Shown one piece after another: positions 55,251 through 64,000 of a stretch of 64,000 nucleotides of DNA. The notes beneath the pieces were generated by a model. That model had not been told where the DNA came from and did no database searches. It worked only from the letters and a program-made list of their open reading frames with translations. This DNA comes from Desulfosporosinus acidiphilus SJ4 (GTDB lineage: Bacteria; Bacillota; Desulfitobacteriia; Desulfitobacteriales; Desulfitobacteriaceae): NCBI RefSeq assembly GCF_000255115.2, contig NC_018068.1:1831977-1895976 (forward strand). The letters are read 5' to 3'. Position 1 is the stretch's first letter. Each line of letters begins with the position of its first letter. Made by a program: the position numbers and the translations under genes.

Positions 55251-55332
55251 AAGATAAATGGCAAAACGGACTTCTTAAGCATAGGGCAAACAATTTAGCA
55301 TAAGTTGGTAATTATTATAGTTTTATAATAAA

Positions 55333-55381
55333 GGAATGTTGGGACGCGCTCTTTAGGGTTTCCTAACGTTCCTATTTTTTT
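55333..55381 (+). terminator. Terminator after spoIVA
   Basis: GGAATGTTGGGA (55333-55344) pairs with TCCTAACGTTCC (55361-55372), with two G-T pairs, then TTTTTTT. Confidence 0.86.
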
Positions 55382-55419
55382 GCTATAGCAGGGGACAGGA
55401 CATGCCCCTAAACTTTCAT

Positions 55420-55663
55420 TGCACAAATGCATAAATATATTGTAATTTTCTGAAAAGTGTTATATTGTATTGCCAGGTGAAATATTATTTATGCAAGAGT
55501 GCAATAATGGTCATAAAGTAAAACCATGTAATCGGATTTCAGGCCTAATATATGAAAGAATTCCATATATTCAATGACAATGCAATGTCGCAATTGACTT
55601 AAGAATTCAGAAGAAGCTGTTCAAAGGCTAATGTGGGGAAGACTAGAAATATGCGCAAATGCA
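55420..55663. promoter_or_regulatory. Four TGCR-N4-YGCA sites upstream of the acyl-CoA cluster
   Basis: TGCACAAATGCA (55420), TGCAAGAGTGCA (55492), TGCAATGTCGCA (55581) and TGCGCAAATGCA (55652) share 5'-TGCR-N4-YGCA-3'. Starts are 72, 89 and 71 bp apart. The arms are palindromic, so they can serve a dimeric regulator, such as the AAA+ regulator at 57859. No sigma-54 -24/-12 pair was found between them and 55776. Confidence 0.6.
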
Positions 55664-55775
55664 TAATAGACGGGGGTGTGAATAGAGTGATTTAGTTTCC
55701 CCTTAGAAGGGAATTTTTTGAGGGTCACAGATCTGGCGAAAAATAAGATAGTTCAAACGTAAGGGGATGAATCTC

Positions 55776-56654
55776 ATGGAAAACAAGGAATTTTACGAGC
55801 GGAAACAAGATAACTCGGAAAAGGAAGCGGAGAACCATTTACTCTATCAGAAAGACGGTTATTTAGCCCGGATTATTTTGAATAGGCCGGAAAACTATAA
55901 TGCCTTTTCCATGCCTATGATTCGCAGATGGGCAGAAGCCTTGCAAGATGCTCAAGAGGATCAAACGATAAGAGTCGTTGTGGTAACGGCCAGGGGCAAG
56001 GCCTTTTGTGCCGGCGGCGATATAAAAGCAATGTTGGCGGGAAAGGGATTTATAGGATGCGATTCTGAAGGAGAGTCTTGGGGTGATAAAGCCATTGACC
56101 GAAAAAGGTCGCTGACAGACCATATCCATAAAATTGCCCTGACGCTTGAAAGGATGGATAAACCGGTTATTTGCGGAATAAACGGTATGGCTGTAGGTGC
56201 CGGTCTTGATATGGCCTTAATGTGCGATATTCGGGTAGCTGCTGAAGACGCCCGGCTTTCGGCGGGATATGTAAAAGTTGGCTTAGTTCCTGGAGATGGC
56301 GGAGCTTTCTACCTGCCTCGTTTGGTAGGAGTCGCCAAAGCGTTAGAACTTTTGTGGACTGGGGAGTTCATCACTGCGGCTGAAGCAGAAAAAATTGGTC
56401 TCGTTAATAAAGTTGTCCCAGGAACAGAGTTGGAAAAATCAACACTAGAATTGGCTCAGAAGATTGCCGGTTCCCCGCCCGTCTGTGTACAGATGATTAA
56501 AAGAGCGGTTTATTCGGCTCAACGTACTAATGATTTGCGGACGGCCTTAGATCTCATTTCTTCGCAGATGGCCATAGTTACTGAAATGGAGGACCATCGA
56601 GAAGGATTAGCCGCCATAAAAGATAAGCGAAGACCTGATTTTAAAGGTCTTTGA
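55776..56654 (+). CDS. Enoyl-CoA hydratase/isomerase family protein, non-canonical active site
   Basis: 292 residues. A short N-terminal extension is followed by the crotonase fold: NRPENYNAFSMPMI, GKAFCAGGDIKAML (oxyanion hole) and GLVPGDGGAFYLPRLVG. The positions of the two catalytic Glu of the rat hydratase are Asp145 (GAGLDMALMCD) and Tyr165 (AGYVKVG), so simple hydratase activity is doubtful; an isomerase or hydrolase is possible. Start ATG 55776 has AAGGGG 9 bp upstream; ATG 55767 is in frame. It begins a cluster with an acyl-CoA dehydrogenase. Confidence 0.88.
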   Translation: MENKEFYERKQDNSEKEAENHLLYQKDGYLARIILNRPENYNAFSMPMIRRWAEALQDAQEDQTIRVVVVTARGKAFCAGGDIKAMLAGKGFIGCDSEGESWGDKAIDRKRSLTDHIHKIALTLERMDKPVICGINGMAVGAGLDMALMCDIRVAAEDARLSAGYVKVGLVPGDGGAFYLPRLVGVAKALELLWTGEFITAAEAEKIGLVNKVVPGTELEKSTLELAQKIAGSPPVCVQMIKRAVYSAQRTNDLRTALDLISSQMAIVTEMEDHREGLAAIKDKRRPDFKGL

Positions 56655-56682
56655 TCCGGATTTTTGCAGGAGGAGGAAGAAA

Positions 56683-57840
56683 ATGGACTATGGGTTGACC
56701 GAAGATCAAAAAATGGTTCAAGATATGGCTCGCAGCTTTGCCGAAAAGGAGATTGCTCCTTATGTTGAAGAAGATGAAGAAAATCATTATTATCGCCGCG
56801 AGATTTTAACTAAAATGGGCGAATTGGGTTTGCTGGGCTGGAGTATTCCTGAAGAATATGGCGGAAATGGCATGGGCTGGATGGAAGCCGTAACGGCATT
56901 ATATGAAATTGCCAAAGTTCATACTTCCTGGAGATTGAGTATCAGCGGCAATGTTTGGGGTCCTGCTATGACTATCAATCAATGGGGTACAGAAGAGCAA
57001 AAACAAAGATATATTCCCGGACTAGTCAGCGGTAAGTTCGTGGGGAGCTTCGCCATGACGGAAGCAAACACCGGCTCAGATGTGAGCAGTATGAAAACTT
57101 ATGCAGAAGATAAGGGCGACCATTGGCTCTTGAACGGAACTAAAATGTGGATCTCGGGGGGACACACCTGTGATGTGGGGCTTGTCTATGCTGTCACGGA
57201 AAAAGGTCTGGGCAGTAAAGGCATCTCTTGTTTTATCGTTGACTATAACAATACTCCCGGTATTACCAGAATTCCGATTCTTAAAAAAGTCGGCATGTGG
57301 CCGGCGCCAACTTCTGAGTTAGTATTCGAAAATGCTGAGATTCCTAAAGAAAACCTTTTGGGACCGCGGAACAAAGGGTTTCAGATTTGTATGTGGATGT
57401 TAAACAATACTCGGATGGGCTGCGCAACGGGTGCGGCAGCGCTTTCGGCGGCTTGCCTCGAAGGAGCTGTCCAATATGCCAACGAACGTTCGCAATTCGG
57501 CAAACCAATTGGCAAACATCAAATGATCCAACAACAGATCGCTGAAATGAAATTAGAAGATGAAGCGGCTAAATATTTGGTCTATCATGCTGCCTGGCTT
57601 AAAGAAAACAAACTGCCAAACCAACAGGAAACGTCAATGGCCAAGCTCTTCAGCAGTATGGCAGCAGTTCACGCCGCTAATACGGCCATGAAAATCTATG
57701 GCTCCTACGGTTATTCCACAGAATATCCCTGCGGCCGCTGGCTGCGGGATGCCAAGCAGTTTGAAACCCTGGAGGGCACTTCCAATATTCATATGCAGAT
57801 TATAGCCAACATTGAATTAGGATATCAGCCAAATCGCTAG
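56683..57840 (+). CDS. Acyl-CoA dehydrogenase
   Basis: 385 residues. It has the family segments GYGGNGMGWMEAVTALYEIAKVHTSWR, FAMTEANTGSDVSSMKT, and RSQFGKPIGKHQMIQQQIAEM. The catalytic base Glu is conserved at 364 in LEGTSNIH. It oxidises an acyl-CoA to the 2,3-enoyl-CoA with FAD, normally passing electrons to ETF, but no etfAB is in the window. CAGGAGGAGGAAG precedes the ATG. It shares an operon with the crotonase (28 bp gap). Confidence 0.95.
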   Translation: MDYGLTEDQKMVQDMARSFAEKEIAPYVEEDEENHYYRREILTKMGELGLLGWSIPEEYGGNGMGWMEAVTALYEIAKVHTSWRLSISGNVWGPAMTINQWGTEEQKQRYIPGLVSGKFVGSFAMTEANTGSDVSSMKTYAEDKGDHWLLNGTKMWISGGHTCDVGLVYAVTEKGLGSKGISCFIVDYNNTPGITRIPILKKVGMWPAPTSELVFENAEIPKENLLGPRNKGFQICMWMLNNTRMGCATGAAALSAACLEGAVQYANERSQFGKPIGKHQMIQQQIAEMKLEDEAAKYLVYHAAWLKENKLPNQQETSMAKLFSSMAAVHAANTAMKIYGSYGYSTEYPCGRWLRDAKQFETLEGTSNIHMQIIANIELGYQPNR

Positions 57841-57858
57841 TAGTAGGGAGGATACAAC

Positions 57859-59973
57859 GTGTTGCGCGTCGGCCAAGTCATGACACGACTTTCTGTAAGT
57901 TTATACAGCTATCATACCATCGGGGATGCTCTGATCTTAATGCAGGAAAAACAGGTATCAGGTTTGCCCTTGCTTAATGAACAGGGTCATCTGCTGGGTA
58001 TGGTTACAAAAGAAATGATCTTTGAAAAGAGTTTGGCATCCTTTAATCCAGTGCATAAGGCCGCCGACTACCTTACCACACGTTTCCTGCCGTTAAAGGA
58101 AGAAGCTCTCTTGGAAGAAGTATGGGATTTGCCTTTTGATATTTACCCTGTATTAAATAACTTAGACGAAATTACCGGTGTCGTCACCAAGTATTCTTTG
58201 GGACGCGCCTATTTTCAACAGATTGAATTGCGCCGGCAGGAGCTTGAAGCAGTTTTTGACTCAGCTCATAACGGAATCATTGCTATCAATAAACAGGGTA
58301 TCATAACGTCTTTGAATCCTGCAGCCGAAAGACCGGCTCGAGCTACAAAAGAAGAAGCCGTTGGGAGATATTTAACGGATGTGATAATTCCTTCGGGTCT
58401 CCTGGACGTTGTCCGCTCCGGGATACCGGATTTCGGGACGAAGTTCCAGGTGGGCCGGCGCCAATATATTTCAAATCGTACTCCTATTGTTAGAGACGGG
58501 GAAGTTGTTGGTGCGGTAGGAGTTTTTCAAGATGTTTCGGAGATAGAAAAAGTACTGCAGGAACTAAGAACCGTGAAACAATTAAATGAAGAACTTAGGA
58601 CAACCATAGCCAGTTCGTACGATGGCATTATTATCTGTGACCGGCAAAGTGAAATTTTGCGCTGCAACCCCGCAGTAGGCCGAATATTAGAAGTTTCTTG
58701 GGAAGATCTAGTTGGGAAGGCTTTTAAGGAACTCGTGGACAACGGCGTTTTTCGCAAGAATATTATTCATTTGGTTAAGAAACAGGGTGGGTTAGTCAGT
58801 ATCTTGGAAAGATCTGCTGCCGAGCATTCCCTGGTTATCACGGGTAATCCGGTATTTGATGACGAGGGAGAAATCGTTAAAGTTGTTATCAACATCCGTG
58901 ATATGAGCGAATTGGTTTATTTACGAGAAGCTTTAGAGGAGAGTAAGCAGCTTTCAGAAAAGTATCAGGCTGAGATTGCTCAAATGAAAAATCACGAGGA
59001 AACAAGTTCAAATGTAAGGGCCTGCTCAGTCATTATGAAAAATGTTCTTGATCTGGCAGCGAGAGTCAGTAAAGTGGATACTCCTGTTGTTTTGGTAGGT
59101 GAACCGGGAGCAGGCAAAGAAGAAATCGCCAAGATGATTCATTTTCAGAGCAAACGCAAGCAAGGCCCCTTTTATAAGTTAAACTGCGGTTCGCTTCCCT
59201 ACCAGTTGTTAGAGACAGAAATGTTTGGTCAAGGAATTGCGTTGGGCAGCGGGATCAAAGGGAAAATTGGATTATTGGAGTTAGCCAACCATGGAAGTTT
59301 ATACCTTGAAGATATAGAAAAAATACCTTTAAACCTGCAAGGAAGACTGTTAAGGGTTCTCCAGGATAAAGTGCTTCAGACTTCTGATGGGAATGAAGCA
59401 GTGGCTGATCTTCGAATTGTAGCCGGCACCCATCGCCCCTTAATCGAGCTAGTGGAAAAAGGGCTGTTTCGTGAAGATCTCTATTTTAGCCTCAATGTTG
59501 TCCCAATCAACGTTCCGCCCTTAAGAGAACGAAAGGAAGACCTTATTCCTTTGATTACGTATTACTTAGAACGAAACAAGAAACGTCATGATCTGGAAAA
59601 GGCCATTGCCCCGGAGGGAATTCAGCAGCTTTTGAATTACTCTTGGCCGGGAAACGTTCGGGAAATGGCGAATGTTCTGGAAAGATTGGTAGTTACCGCT
59701 CAGGGAAAAACGATTTCCGGGAAAGAGGTTAAGACGGTACTTTATGAAAAAGAGAAAAACCTTCGGGCAGTCACGGTGAGCGACGTGGTTCCCCTGAAGG
59801 AAGCAATCGATGATTTGGAACAACAACTTGTAACCTTAGCTATGGAGTTGCACGGAACGACAGTTAAAGCGGCAGAGGCTTTGGGTGTTAATCAATCAAC
59901 GGTGGTACGTAAGTTACAGAAGATTAAAGATCCGAAGGGTAGTCATGACGCCAAAATAGTGCAGAAAAAGTAA
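57859..59973 (+). CDS. CBS-PAS-PAS-AAA+-Fis regulator lacking the GAFTGA loop
   Basis: 704 residues. Two CBS repeats (about 1-118), two PAS domains (about 120-225 and 235-345), an AAA+ domain (about 375-610) and a Fis-type HTH (TTVKAAEALGVNQSTVVRKLQKI). Architecture is that of sigma-54 activators, but the GAFTGA contact loop is replaced by residues 459-468 (GIALGSGIKG). Walker B reads LYLEDIEK (Glu484-Asp485 inverted relative to DE). The second Arg of the R-finger segment is Ser544 (REDLYFSLN). Walker A (GEPGAGKEE) is retained. Start GTG 57859 follows GGGAGGATA. It probably controls the surrounding acyl-CoA genes. Confidence 0.9.
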   Translation: MLRVGQVMTRLSVSLYSYHTIGDALILMQEKQVSGLPLLNEQGHLLGMVTKEMIFEKSLASFNPVHKAADYLTTRFLPLKEEALLEEVWDLPFDIYPVLNNLDEITGVVTKYSLGRAYFQQIELRRQELEAVFDSAHNGIIAINKQGIITSLNPAAERPARATKEEAVGRYLTDVIIPSGLLDVVRSGIPDFGTKFQVGRRQYISNRTPIVRDGEVVGAVGVFQDVSEIEKVLQELRTVKQLNEELRTTIASSYDGIIICDRQSEILRCNPAVGRILEVSWEDLVGKAFKELVDNGVFRKNIIHLVKKQGGLVSILERSAAEHSLVITGNPVFDDEGEIVKVVINIRDMSELVYLREALEESKQLSEKYQAEIAQMKNHEETSSNVRACSVIMKNVLDLAARVSKVDTPVVLVGEPGAGKEEIAKMIHFQSKRKQGPFYKLNCGSLPYQLLETEMFGQGIALGSGIKGKIGLLELANHGSLYLEDIEKIPLNLQGRLLRVLQDKVLQTSDGNEAVADLRIVAGTHRPLIELVEKGLFREDLYFSLNVVPINVPPLRERKEDLIPLITYYLERNKKRHDLEKAIAPEGIQQLLNYSWPGNVREMANVLERLVVTAQGKTISGKEVKTVLYEKEKNLRAVTVSDVVPLKEAIDDLEQQLVTLAMELHGTTVKAAEALGVNQSTVVRKLQKIKDPKGSHDAKIVQKK

Positions 59974-60091
59974 AGAAGTAAATGTTCCTAAAGGTTCCTA
60001 TTGATTTATCAAATTTTAAAATGTCAGGGAGATAGCAACAATGATCAAATAGCTGGACCTAACTGGGAAAGACCATGAGAGGGGGAGAAAC

Positions 60092-62221
60092 ATGCATTAT
60101 TTCATGGAGCCAACGGGTGTTGCTATTTTTGGGGCCAGCCAGGATTTTACCACAATTAACGGTAAAATTCTTAAATATCTTTTGAAACACCAGTTTGGGG
60201 GCCAAATTTATCCTATTAATCCTAAATATAAAGAAATTGTCGGTTTACCTTGTTATCCTTCAATAGGAGATATTACTGAGCAAGTCGATTTAGCCCTTAT
60301 TGCTGTTGCAGCAGCAAGAGTGCCGGGGATTTTAAGAGACTGCGGTGGCAAGGGAGTAAAAAGAGCCGTCATTTTCTCCTCAGGATTTGCTGAAATGGGC
60401 CAGGAAGGTAAGAAAGTTCAAGAAGAAATACTTCAGATCGCCAAAGAATATAACATGCGGGTCATCGGTCCCAATTGTTTAGGTATCCTGAATGTTTCCA
60501 CAGGATTAATTGCCTCTTTCAGTGGCTCGATGGAAGTGGATCATATAAAAACAGGTCCGGTCGCCTTAGTCTCGCAAAGCGGAGCTGTTGGTTTTATGCT
60601 CTTTAATTTATTGCAGGAAGCCGGAGTCGGTGTGAATTATGTTGTTACAACGGGCAATGAAGCAGATGTAACGGCTGGGGAAGGGTTAACGTATGTTGTA
60701 GAAAGCCCGGATACGAAAGTAGTTCTCACTTACCTTGAAGGCTTAAGAGACGGGGAATCGTTTCGTAAGACTGCAGAAAAAGCCGCTGAGGCGGGAAAGC
60801 CAATCATTGCTTTAAAGGTTGGGAATTCAGCCAGCGGCCAAAAAGCTGCCGCTACTCATACAGCTGCCTTAACCGGCTCTGGGGGAGCCTATAAAAGCTA
60901 CTTTGAAAAAATGGGAATAATTCAAGCCCGTGACAGTGAGGATATCATAGACCTAGCCCAAGCCTTTCTGCCGGGGAAGCTTCCGCATGGACCAAGGGTG
61001 GGAATTGTCACCATGTCGGGAGGCGTAGGGATCTTGCTGGCTGATCGTTCCGAAGAGATAGGATTGCAAGTGCCGGAATTAAGTGCTTCTTTACAGAAAG
61101 AAGTACAAAAGGTCATCCCTTCATTTGGCTGCGCCCAAAATCCAGTGGATGTAACTGCTCAATCCCTAAATCAGGGAGAAGAATTTAAAAAATGTTTAAG
61201 AATCCTGTTAGCTTCTGACGAACTGGATATGCTGATTGTTGCCATTACCATGGCTACTGGGCAAATAGCTGAGAAAATTGGCCGGGATATAGCCGAAGCC
61301 GCTTTAGGAACCGATAAGCCTTTAGTTGTCAGTTGGAGCGTCGGTCAAGTTGCTAAACCAGGGTTTGAGGTCCTTAAAAAGGCCGGTGTTCCTTTGTATC
61401 ATTCACCGGCCAGAGCAGTGAAAGCCATTGGAGCCTTATACCATTATGCTAATTTCCAAAAGAATTGGAAATTGCCGGCCATTGATAAGATAGATCCTCT
61501 TCGAAAGAGCCAAATTCAAACGGTTTTAAGGAAAAGTTCTCAGGCACTGAGTGAACACGCTACTAAAGAATTGTTAGAATTATACGGACTTCCGGTTACT
61601 AAAGAATATGTGGCTGTGACTGCGGAAGAAGCGGTAGGTATTGCCGAGAAATTTGGCTACCCTGTGGTTATGAAAATAGATTCTCCGGACATACTGCACA
61701 AAACCGAAGCGGGCGGCGTTGCTGTCAATATTAGTTCTCCTCAGGAAGTAAGAGCAAAGTTTCAGGAAATCATAGAGAGAGGCAAGGCCTATAACCCGCA
61801 GGCAAAAATTAATGGTATTTTAATACAAGAGCAAGTCACGCCGGGAGTCGAGGTCATCATTGGTTTGCAAAGAGATCCTGTCCTGGGAACTCAGATTATG
61901 TTTGGACTGGGCGGTATTTTCGTCGAAGTACTTAAAGATTTCATATTAAAACCAGTCCCCTTAAGCCGTGAAGATGCAGAGAATATGCTCAATGAGATCA
62001 AAGGGGCGGCTCTGTTAAACGGTGTAAGAGGAAGGGGAGCAGTCGATAAGGAAGCTTTAACGGAAATACTGCTCGGTGTCAGCCAATTAGCCGTGGAAGC
62101 GGAGGACACTCTTTTAAGCCTGGACATGAATCCGGTAACTGTATTACCTAAAGGGTTAGGTGCCAAAGTTTTAGATGGAGTGTTAATAAGTTCTGATTCT
62201 TGCCAAACTTGTACAAACTAG
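60092..62221 (+). CDS. NDP-forming acyl-CoA synthetase (acetyl-CoA synthetase type, fused alpha-beta)
   Basis: 709 residues. A CoA-binding domain (about 5-130, VAIFGASQDFTTINGKILKYL) is followed by the ligase_CoA region, with the catalytic His256 (AAATHTAALTGS), and an ATP-grasp domain (about 490-709, ATKELLELYGLPVTKEYVAVTAEEAV). It converts an acyl-CoA plus ADP and Pi to acid and ATP, or the reverse. Following a dehydrogenase and a crotonase, it could save energy at the end of an acyl-CoA pathway. GAGGGGGAG precedes ATG 60092. Confidence 0.93.
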   Translation: MHYFMEPTGVAIFGASQDFTTINGKILKYLLKHQFGGQIYPINPKYKEIVGLPCYPSIGDITEQVDLALIAVAAARVPGILRDCGGKGVKRAVIFSSGFAEMGQEGKKVQEEILQIAKEYNMRVIGPNCLGILNVSTGLIASFSGSMEVDHIKTGPVALVSQSGAVGFMLFNLLQEAGVGVNYVVTTGNEADVTAGEGLTYVVESPDTKVVLTYLEGLRDGESFRKTAEKAAEAGKPIIALKVGNSASGQKAAATHTAALTGSGGAYKSYFEKMGIIQARDSEDIIDLAQAFLPGKLPHGPRVGIVTMSGGVGILLADRSEEIGLQVPELSASLQKEVQKVIPSFGCAQNPVDVTAQSLNQGEEFKKCLRILLASDELDMLIVAITMATGQIAEKIGRDIAEAALGTDKPLVVSWSVGQVAKPGFEVLKKAGVPLYHSPARAVKAIGALYHYANFQKNWKLPAIDKIDPLRKSQIQTVLRKSSQALSEHATKELLELYGLPVTKEYVAVTAEEAVGIAEKFGYPVVMKIDSPDILHKTEAGGVAVNISSPQEVRAKFQEIIERGKAYNPQAKINGILIQEQVTPGVEVIIGLQRDPVLGTQIMFGLGGIFVEVLKDFILKPVPLSREDAENMLNEIKGAALLNGVRGRGAVDKEALTEILLGVSQLAVEAEDTLLSLDMNPVTVLPKGLGAKVLDGVLISSDSCQTCTN

Positions 62222-62789: not shown

Positions 62790-62866
62790 CGGGGCGTGGC
62801 TCAGCTTGGTAGAGCGCTACCTTGGGGTGGTAGAGGTCGCACGTTCAAATCGTGTCGCTCCGACCA
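62790..62866 (+). tRNA. tRNA-Pro (anticodon GGG)
   Basis: 77 nt. The acceptor CGGGGCG pairs with CGCTCCG (one G-T), discriminator A62863 and encoded CCA (62864-62866). The anticodon arm CTACC-TTGGGGT-GGTAG has anticodon GGG at 62824-62826. T arm GCACG-TTCAAAT-CGTGT is clear. It is followed at once by an integrase remnant, so it is a likely attachment site. Confidence 0.96.
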
Positions 62867-62936
62867 GTATTATCAAGGCTTTCAGCCTTTTAAGGTAGGC
62901 GGGTCGAACCCCAAATGTCGACCAAATGCCGACCAA

Positions 62937-62967
62937 AAAATAGACCATAATAAATGGTCTATTTTCG
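62937..62967 (-). terminator. Terminator beside the integrase remnant
   Basis: AAAATAGACCA pairs with TGGTCTATTTT across a 7-nt loop; T runs occur on both strands. It sits just after the integrase stop on its strand. Direct repeats AAATGTCGACC/AAATGCCGACC (62915-62937) next to it may be integrase arm sites. Confidence 0.7.
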
Positions 62968-62983
62968 TATCCTGCTCTTATTT

Positions 62984-63304
62984 CTATCTGCTTTCTTCTT
63001 GTTGGAGTTCGATTATTTTTCTATTGATCTCATCTTTCTTTTTAACTCCAAGATGCTGATAAATTCCCTTTAAAACTTTAATATCGTGTCCAAGGCGCTC
63101 GGCTGCTAAATGATCTAGCACATCATTTTCATACAGCCATGTCGCGTGATAATGCCGAAGAAAGTGCAAACGAGTCTTCGGTATTTTTTTGTCTCTCACG
63201 AGCTTCCCTAAATAACTAGTGTAGCTATCGGGTCGCATCGGGAACGGGAACATTAATTGGTCGTTCTTTATATTTTTATCATTTGAGTTAGTTTCATAAT
63301 TCAT
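62984..63304 (-). pseudogene. Truncated tyrosine recombinase (phage/ICE-type integrase)
   Basis: Only the C-terminal part of the catalytic domain is present: LHFLRHYHATWLYENDVLDHLAAERLGHDIKVLKGIYQHLGVKKKDEINRK. The His-x-x-Arg box (HFLRH), the later His (LGH) and the catalytic Tyr (IYQHLG) are kept. The N-terminal arm-binding and first-Arg regions are missing. Upstream on its strand the frame runs into sequence that belongs to the IS. It points toward the tRNA-Pro end, the usual geometry of tRNA-targeted elements. Confidence 0.75.
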
Positions 63305-63414
63305 ACCCCTTGATATAAGCGGGCTTTTTACCTGTAAAAAAAGGAGTACCTCCCCAAAATCTCGAAAGTGTAAGTGACCAAACAAACACCGAGAGGTTGA
63401 AAGGAGAACTCCCA
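63305..63414 (+). mobile_element. Left end of an insertion sequence interrupting the integrase
   Basis: Between the integrase remnant and the transposase ATG lies about 110 bp, with CTGTAAAAAAAGGAGTACCT and a CTCCC ribosome-site region (AAAGGAGAACTCCC at 63399-63412). The true inverted repeat cannot be fixed without the right end, which is outside the window. Confidence 0.5.
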
Positions 63415-64000
63415 ATGTTTAGTATTCGCCAAGAACGTCTATTTTCCTTGGAAGAAATCTTAGAAATGTCACCGAAAGAATCGTATCCGCTTCTATTGGA
63501 ACCGCTGAATATTACTCCTTTGTTGAGAGTGGTTTCAAAAAGGGCATTTTTGGGAGCTTCAACCACGCTTAACTATTCAGCCATGATCTATTCTTTATTC
63601 ATTCGAGTGATCGAACGAATTCCTACGATCAAAGATTTACGAAAACGATTAAAAAACAGCTTGGAATTCCGTTTCGACTGCGGCTTTACGATGGCTGATG
63701 CAGTTCCTAGCGAGTCCTCTTATACTCGAATGATTCAAAAAATCAAGGGTTCTTCTGCTTTGGAAAAAATTCAAAATGAACTAGTCTCTCAGGCGTTTCA
63801 AGAAGGCTTCATCGATGGGGATGTTATAGCCATCGATGCTACTCATATTGAAGCGAGAGACCGTAAACCTGAGAAAAAGAAAGACGAAGAGGTTCCGGTC
63901 AAGCAAACCTCCAAAAAACGCGGACGAAAACCCAAATCGGAACGGGAGAAATGGCTCAAAGAACAACAGAAACTGGAAGAGAATCGACCCCTCTTTGAGA
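63415..64000 (+). CDS. IS1182-type transposase, N-terminal part
   Basis: Partial, 195 codons to the window edge. An N-terminal DUF772-like domain (LNYSAMIYSLFIRVIERIPTIKDLRKRLKNSLEFRFDCGFTMADAVPSESSYTRMIQKI) precedes the DDE catalytic part, whose first Asp lies in DGDVIAIDATHIEARDR. A Lys/Arg-rich insert follows. The start ATG 63415 has AAAGGAGAAC upstream. Such elements are common in Desulfosporosinus-like genomes; whether this copy is intact is unknown. Confidence 0.85.
   Translation, partial: MFSIRQERLFSLEEILEMSPKESYPLLLEPLNITPLLRVVSKRAFLGASTTLNYSAMIYSLFIRVIERIPTIKDLRKRLKNSLEFRFDCGFTMADAVPSESSYTRMIQKIKGSSALEKIQNELVSQAFQEGFIDGDVIAIDATHIEARDRKPEKKKDEEVPVKQTSKKRGRKPKSEREKWLKEQQKLEENRPLFE

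Follow-up and report, generated by a model that had tools for sequence, protein, structure and literature searches.

The gene at 57859..59973 (+) of the window (the whole 64,000-nucleotide stretch of Desulfosporosinus acidiphilus SJ4 DNA analysed here) has a GTG start and encodes a degenerate sigma-54-activator-like regulator of 704 amino acids, with the domain order CBS pair-PAS-PAS-AAA+-HTH. With good though incomplete confidence, we take it to be a descendant of the sigma-54 EBPs that no longer depends on sigma-54 and regulates its own catabolic operon in a site-specific way. Our best reading is of an ATP-binding, non-hydrolysing local regulator of acyl-CoA catabolic genes, TyrR-like in its mode of action without being a TyrR.

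Motif losses in the AAA+ domain

Pfam matches in the protein are CBS, PAS (two), Sigma54_activat (145 bits), AAA_lid_14 and HTH_50/HTH_8. Alignment with canonical activators pairs their loop L1, FGYExGAFTGAxxxGKxG, with FGQGIALGSGI--KGKIG in the window protein, where the position of the GAFTGA loop (QGIALGSGIKG, residues 458-468, 59230..59262, +) is two residues shorter. The original prediction had placed this loss at residues 459-468, right to within one or two residues. Walker B, canonically LFLDEIGD, reads LYLEDIEK (residues 481-488, 59299..59322, +), with E484 for the aspartate and D485 for the glutamate. RxDxxxR is reduced to RxDxxxS (residues 538-544, 59470..59490, +), S544 aligning with the second arginine, R168 of PspF. 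Walker A is intact (GEPGAGKE, residues 414-421, 59098..59121, +, with K420), as are the equivalent of PspF R162, which is the first R-finger arginine, and an arginine of the sensor-II region, R601. Both altered ATPase motifs and the retained Walker A had likewise been read from the sequence beforehand, and each defect is present in the EBP alignment as it was described.

An AlphaFold2 model superposes the AAA+ domain on NtrC1/PspF (Z 27-29, 2.2-3.1 Å), with pLDDT below 50 at loop residues 462-465. In PspF the single changes D107A, E108A/Q, R162A/H and R168A/E/K/H leave ∼1% or less of Vmax (PMC3419264). Judged by alignment, the window protein has no GAFTGA equivalent; contact with sigma-54 would be lost, and ATP hydrolysis is probably lost too.

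Counting as clear sigma-54 activators those proteins that match PF00158 at more than 140 bits, the window's genome has 36, and in 35 of them the DE pair of Walker B, the two R-finger arginines and a loop of the GAFTGA type are all intact, the window protein being the sole exception. We found 12 orthologues at 62–78% identity, 11 within the genus (70–78%) and the twelfth from a different family in the same order (62–63%). All 12 lack GAFTGA, have the Walker B aspartate changed to glutamate and carry Ser or Thr for the second arginine, with Walker A and HTH intact. Since the other 35 activators keep all three motifs and the orthologues share the losses, neither chance nor assembly error accounts for them. 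Compared with functional sigma-54 EBPs, the 13 proteins retain Walker A (GExGxGKE, 13/13) and have no GAFTGA-like L1 (0/13), with hhhhDE become ED, EE, EN or ER. The second Walker B position (D/E/N/R) and the first arginine (R/H/S/L) vary within the group, and the L1 sequence itself is not conserved.

In a tree of the AAA+/HTH region, built with the motif columns left out, the window protein and its 12 orthologues form a single clade with 100/100 support. Median dN/dS is 0.06–0.10 in each domain of this clade, indicating purifying selection; a pseudogene, with ratios of ∼0.1 or less across all domains, is ruled out. The AAA+ domain is the fastest-changing domain of the degenerate clade (median dN 0.164) and the slowest of the canonical sister clade (0.052), while the HTH is among the best-conserved domains of the degenerate clade.

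A further orthologue (67% identity), found later and lying outside the tree, comes from another genus of the family (G067). It is without GAFTGA and has EE in Walker B, with both R-finger arginines kept, so that by its sequence it looks like an intermediate in the series of losses. GAFTGA-less activator relatives also occur in Thermincola (L043) and Oceanobacillus (L054, L058); because other parts of the ATPase site are retained there, their alignment suggests independent losses.

The linked operon and its promoter

The linked operon starts with an enoyl-CoA hydratase/crotonase family gene (55767..56654, +), followed by an acyl-CoA dehydrogenase gene (56683..57840, +), whose best NCBIfam match is glutaryl-CoA dehydrogenase Acd (414 bits, under the cut-off of 470). 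Beyond the regulator lies a gene for an ADP-forming acyl-CoA ligase (60092..62221, +), a neighbour conserved in relatives. The relatives' clusters often add a carboxyltransferase, a sodium-pump decarboxylase beta subunit (TIGR01109, 500 bits) and a TAXI-TRAP transporter. From these matches we infer degradation of acids of the glutaryl/glutaconyl-CoA type, noting that the dehydrogenase falls under its model cut-off and the carboxyltransferase matches mmdA weakly. The window cluster (55251-62221) has no carboxyltransferase, decarboxylase beta subunit or TRAP transporter gene; its pathway may be shortened or the missing parts encoded elsewhere. A literature search found no published work on glutarate use by Desulfosporosinus or on this regulator. 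Further on, open reading frames at 62796-63566 resemble a tRNA gene read through as coding sequence and part of a tyrosine recombinase (minus strand), a possible remnant of an element integrated at a tRNA.

At operons linked to the degenerate protein, dyads of the form TATGC-N6-GCATA flank a sigma-70-like promoter, TTGTAA-N15-TATAWT. The dyad was first spotted by eye and then counted against all dyads of equal size with shuffled controls; it was found in 9 of 10 upstream regions, where the shuffled maximum for any dyad was 6. Site 1 ends 5–8 bases above TTGWAA, the TATAWT-like hexamer usually follows 15 bases on, which is a short spacer, and site 2 usually lies 70–74 bp from site 1. In the window, candidate site 1 (ATTGCACAAATGCATA, 55418..55433, +) stands 6 bases upstream of the -35-like hexamer of TTGTAA-N15-TATATT (55440..55466, +), a promoter whose position is conserved across orthologues. 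Candidate site 2 (TATGCAAGAGTGCAAT, 55490..55505, +) is 72 bp from site 1, and both match at only 8/10; candidate site 3 (TATGCGCAAATGCATA, 55650..55665, +) is exact, one of only 4 exact TATGC-N6-GCATA sequences in the genome. The other three comprise two intragenic dyads and a single intergenic one, and a wide dyad regulon in this genome is unsupported.

For each promoter where the composite module was found, the fraction of shuffles at or above the observed score was 0.003 or less. Scanned across the genus, the module precedes the operon in 9 carrier genomes and a G013 fragment, and in two genomes (G019 and G022) it is also found at a permease that adjoins the cluster. Remaining matches are scattered at about the density expected by chance, and in genomes without the degenerate protein no composite match adjoins the dehydrogenase gene. 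L194 gave no module in the scan, though single dyads are present, and for the distant orthologue (L021) the contig ends too near upstream of the dehydrogenase for the module scan. A second dyad/promoter module stands ahead of an anion permease gene next to the cluster in L124 (11876-12480) and L125 (11819-12231), so transport may belong to the local regulon. In G067, which took no part in defining the motif, the promoter region of a Gcd-ECH-regulator cluster has dyads with 10, 9 and 10 matches within ∼610 bp, against an expectation of ∼0.02 at the one-mismatch rate of the window genome (157 in 5 Mb), from which G067 may differ in base composition. No matching -35/-10 hexamers were found in that region.

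The same genes elsewhere in the genus provide a comparison. The same dehydrogenase (85–90% identity) adjoins canonical GAFTGA activators in five genomes (G026, G008, G020, G017 and G006), and two more (G003 and G016) have a second dehydrogenase copy beside a canonical activator while carrying the degenerate regulator too. All seven canonical-linked loci have -24/-12 promoters scoring 11–13 of 13 (null fraction 0.003 or less), and none has a strong dyad module. Upstream of degenerate-linked operons the -24/-12 scores are at null level (at best 8/13 in the window), save for 11/13 in L193, beside its dyad module, and 10/13 in the long L127 region. Other transcripts of the cluster have -24/-12-like sites close by in two carrier genomes: the permease-ECH transcript of L126 and the divergent permease of L128. 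The sigma-70-type role put forward as a possibility in the original prediction is supported from two sides, by the sequence losses and by the contrast between sigma-70-like modules and the canonical -24/-12 loci.

Proposed mechanism and rival explanations

The Fis/TyrR-type helix-turn-helix (residues 646-688, VNQSTVVRKLQK, 59794..59922, +) is strongly conserved and would bind the TATGC-N6-GCATA dyads. This pairing is suggested by linkage and HTH similarity: canonical activators of the L025 type have almost the same recognition helix (NQSTVVRKLQRL), and dyads of matching geometry, AATGC-N6-GCATT, are found near them. In L187 (8221-8325), L188 (8936-9024) and L189 (10360-10470) these dyads occupy convergent intergenic space just past the canonical activator gene, ∼2 kb away from their possible target promoters of the -24/-12 type. 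A site shared with aldehyde-oxidoreductase-linked sister activators was rejected, as their dyads, read by eye, differ (TGCAT-N7-ATGCA).

In the proposed mechanism the AAA+ domain would bind ATP without useful hydrolysis and act as an oligomerisation platform. Oligomers would bridge the site just upstream of the -35 and that just downstream of the -10, a distance of 70–74 bp or ∼7 helical turns, much as TyrR hexamers join strong and weak boxes. The bridged oligomer would then control sigma-70 RNA polymerase in response to a metabolite sensed by the PAS or CBS domains, probably an acid of the pathway or an acyl-CoA from it. A weak promoter (15-bp spacer) and a site near -48 favour activation and a site near +24 favours repression; our first choice would be for the protein to do both, depending on ligand, as TyrR does.

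The sensory part comprises the CBS pair (residues 1-118, 57859..58212, +) and two PAS domains (residues ∼119-228 and ∼244-349) followed by a long signalling helix (350-382; together 58213..58905, +). Possible signals named beforehand were adenylate charge and redox; sensing of adenylate charge through the CBS domains proved unsupported. The aspartate of the GhhTxxD motif in CBS2 is present in most canonical relatives and is Ser or Ala in 13/13 degenerate proteins (Ser at this ribose contact in the window protein), and it is absent from CBS1 of the degenerate proteins as well. CBS domains that bind nucleotides typically have this residue; with its loss from CBS2, adenylate sensing through CBS appears less likely than first proposed.

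Linkage alone does not prove that dyad and protein belong together, and the dyads could serve a different transcription factor, leaving the degenerate protein a sensor-like vestige whose role at the promoter is slight or nil. We consider this improbable: the HTH is one of the best-conserved domains, the dyads track the degenerate orthologue even into another genus, the cluster has no second conserved regulator gene across relatives, and the canonical relatives described above pair nearly the same recognition helix with nearby dyads of the same geometry. It is a shade less probable that the protein is a dominant-negative or modulating partner, forming mixed oligomers with a canonical activator and so tuning sigma-54 transcription. 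Such a role would suit the kept Walker A, the canonical paralogues in the same genomes and the constitutive hexamers formed by PspF R-finger mutants changed at R162 or R168 (PMC3419264); at nearly all carrier loci, however, the linked operon has no -24/-12 promoter immediately before it, and direct binding to DNA at the sigma-70-like promoter is the better match for a protein with dyads of its own and a conserved HTH.

Least probable, and in our judgement very unlikely, is a protein still working with sigma-54 through a non-canonical loop and a residual ATPase. The genome does encode one RpoN, and the retained R162 equivalent and sensor-II arginine, along with Walker A, make some ATPase activity conceivable. 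Yet the loop sequence is unconserved among orthologues, all 13 proteins have a changed acid pair in Walker B and Ser or Thr for the second arginine, and the stretch immediately before the linked operons has no -24/-12 element. A sigma-54-independent regulator acting directly on its own operon is therefore the reading we prefer.

Relation to known GAFTGA-less regulators

Relatives that lack GAFTGA and act with sigma-70 are established: TyrR, DhaR, HupR, VpsR and the NtrC proteins of R. capsulatus and Caulobacter (PMC3162934, PMC10274813). A Clostridiales survey found GAFTGA or a working variant in 455 of 490 activators (PMC6615313), so that rare GAFTGA-less activators were already visible there. 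The window protein resembles these regulators in working, but by the tests run it belongs to none of them.

TyrR of E. coli shares with it descent from sigma-54 activators, a defective GAFTGA and action with sigma-70 (PMC3162934, PMC4374768). The TyrR dyad, TGTAAA-N6-TTTACA, occurs as several boxes per promoter and has the six-base spacer of the window dyads but another sequence; TyrR forms ATP-dependent oligomers (PMC3162934, PMC4374768), where for the window protein oligomerisation is only proposed. The window protein scores 213 bits against the TyrR model NF008085 (cut-off 576), its N-terminus is CBS-PAS-PAS with no ACT match in Pfam, and it is linked to acyl-CoA genes. The NtrC proteins of R. 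capsulatus and Caulobacter, with GAFTGA deleted, act at sigma-70 promoters, and in R. capsulatus ATP binding is needed but hydrolysis is not (PMC10274813). They have a phosphorylated receiver, whereas the window protein, likewise missing GAFTGA, has CBS/PAS sensors and a degraded Walker B and R-finger as well. VpsR of Vibrio cholerae is GAFTGA-less at sigma-70 promoters and its AAA+ fold matches our model (7v2b, Z 26.4, 1.9 Å), but its N-terminal domain, ligand and target genes are different. The top NCBIfam model, NF041552 (380 bits, under the cut-off of 795), represents the PrdR-type clostridial CBS-PAS-AAA+-HTH activators; PrdR itself depends on sigma-54 and regulates proline reductase (PMC6615313), while the window protein is without the sigma-54 contact motif. 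The Pfam name would mislabel such genes as sigma-54 activators.

New here are the orthologous group, the cis sites and the paired canonical controls. One genus runs the same acyl-CoA genes either on a canonical activator with -24/-12 promoters or on a degenerate one with dyads and sigma-70-like promoters, two genomes have both, and G067 provides an apparent intermediate. On these grounds we lean slightly towards a stepwise, readable conversion of a sigma-54 circuit into a sigma-70 circuit, in which the AAA+ ring would have passed from motor to DNA-bridging scaffold. TyrR, R. capsulatus NtrC and VpsR are known as isolated end points, whereas in the present case a joint switch of protein and promoter appears to have taken place inside one genus. 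Canonical controls adjoin the same genes, and together with the apparent intermediate they make a sigma-54 activator's change of polymerase directly testable.
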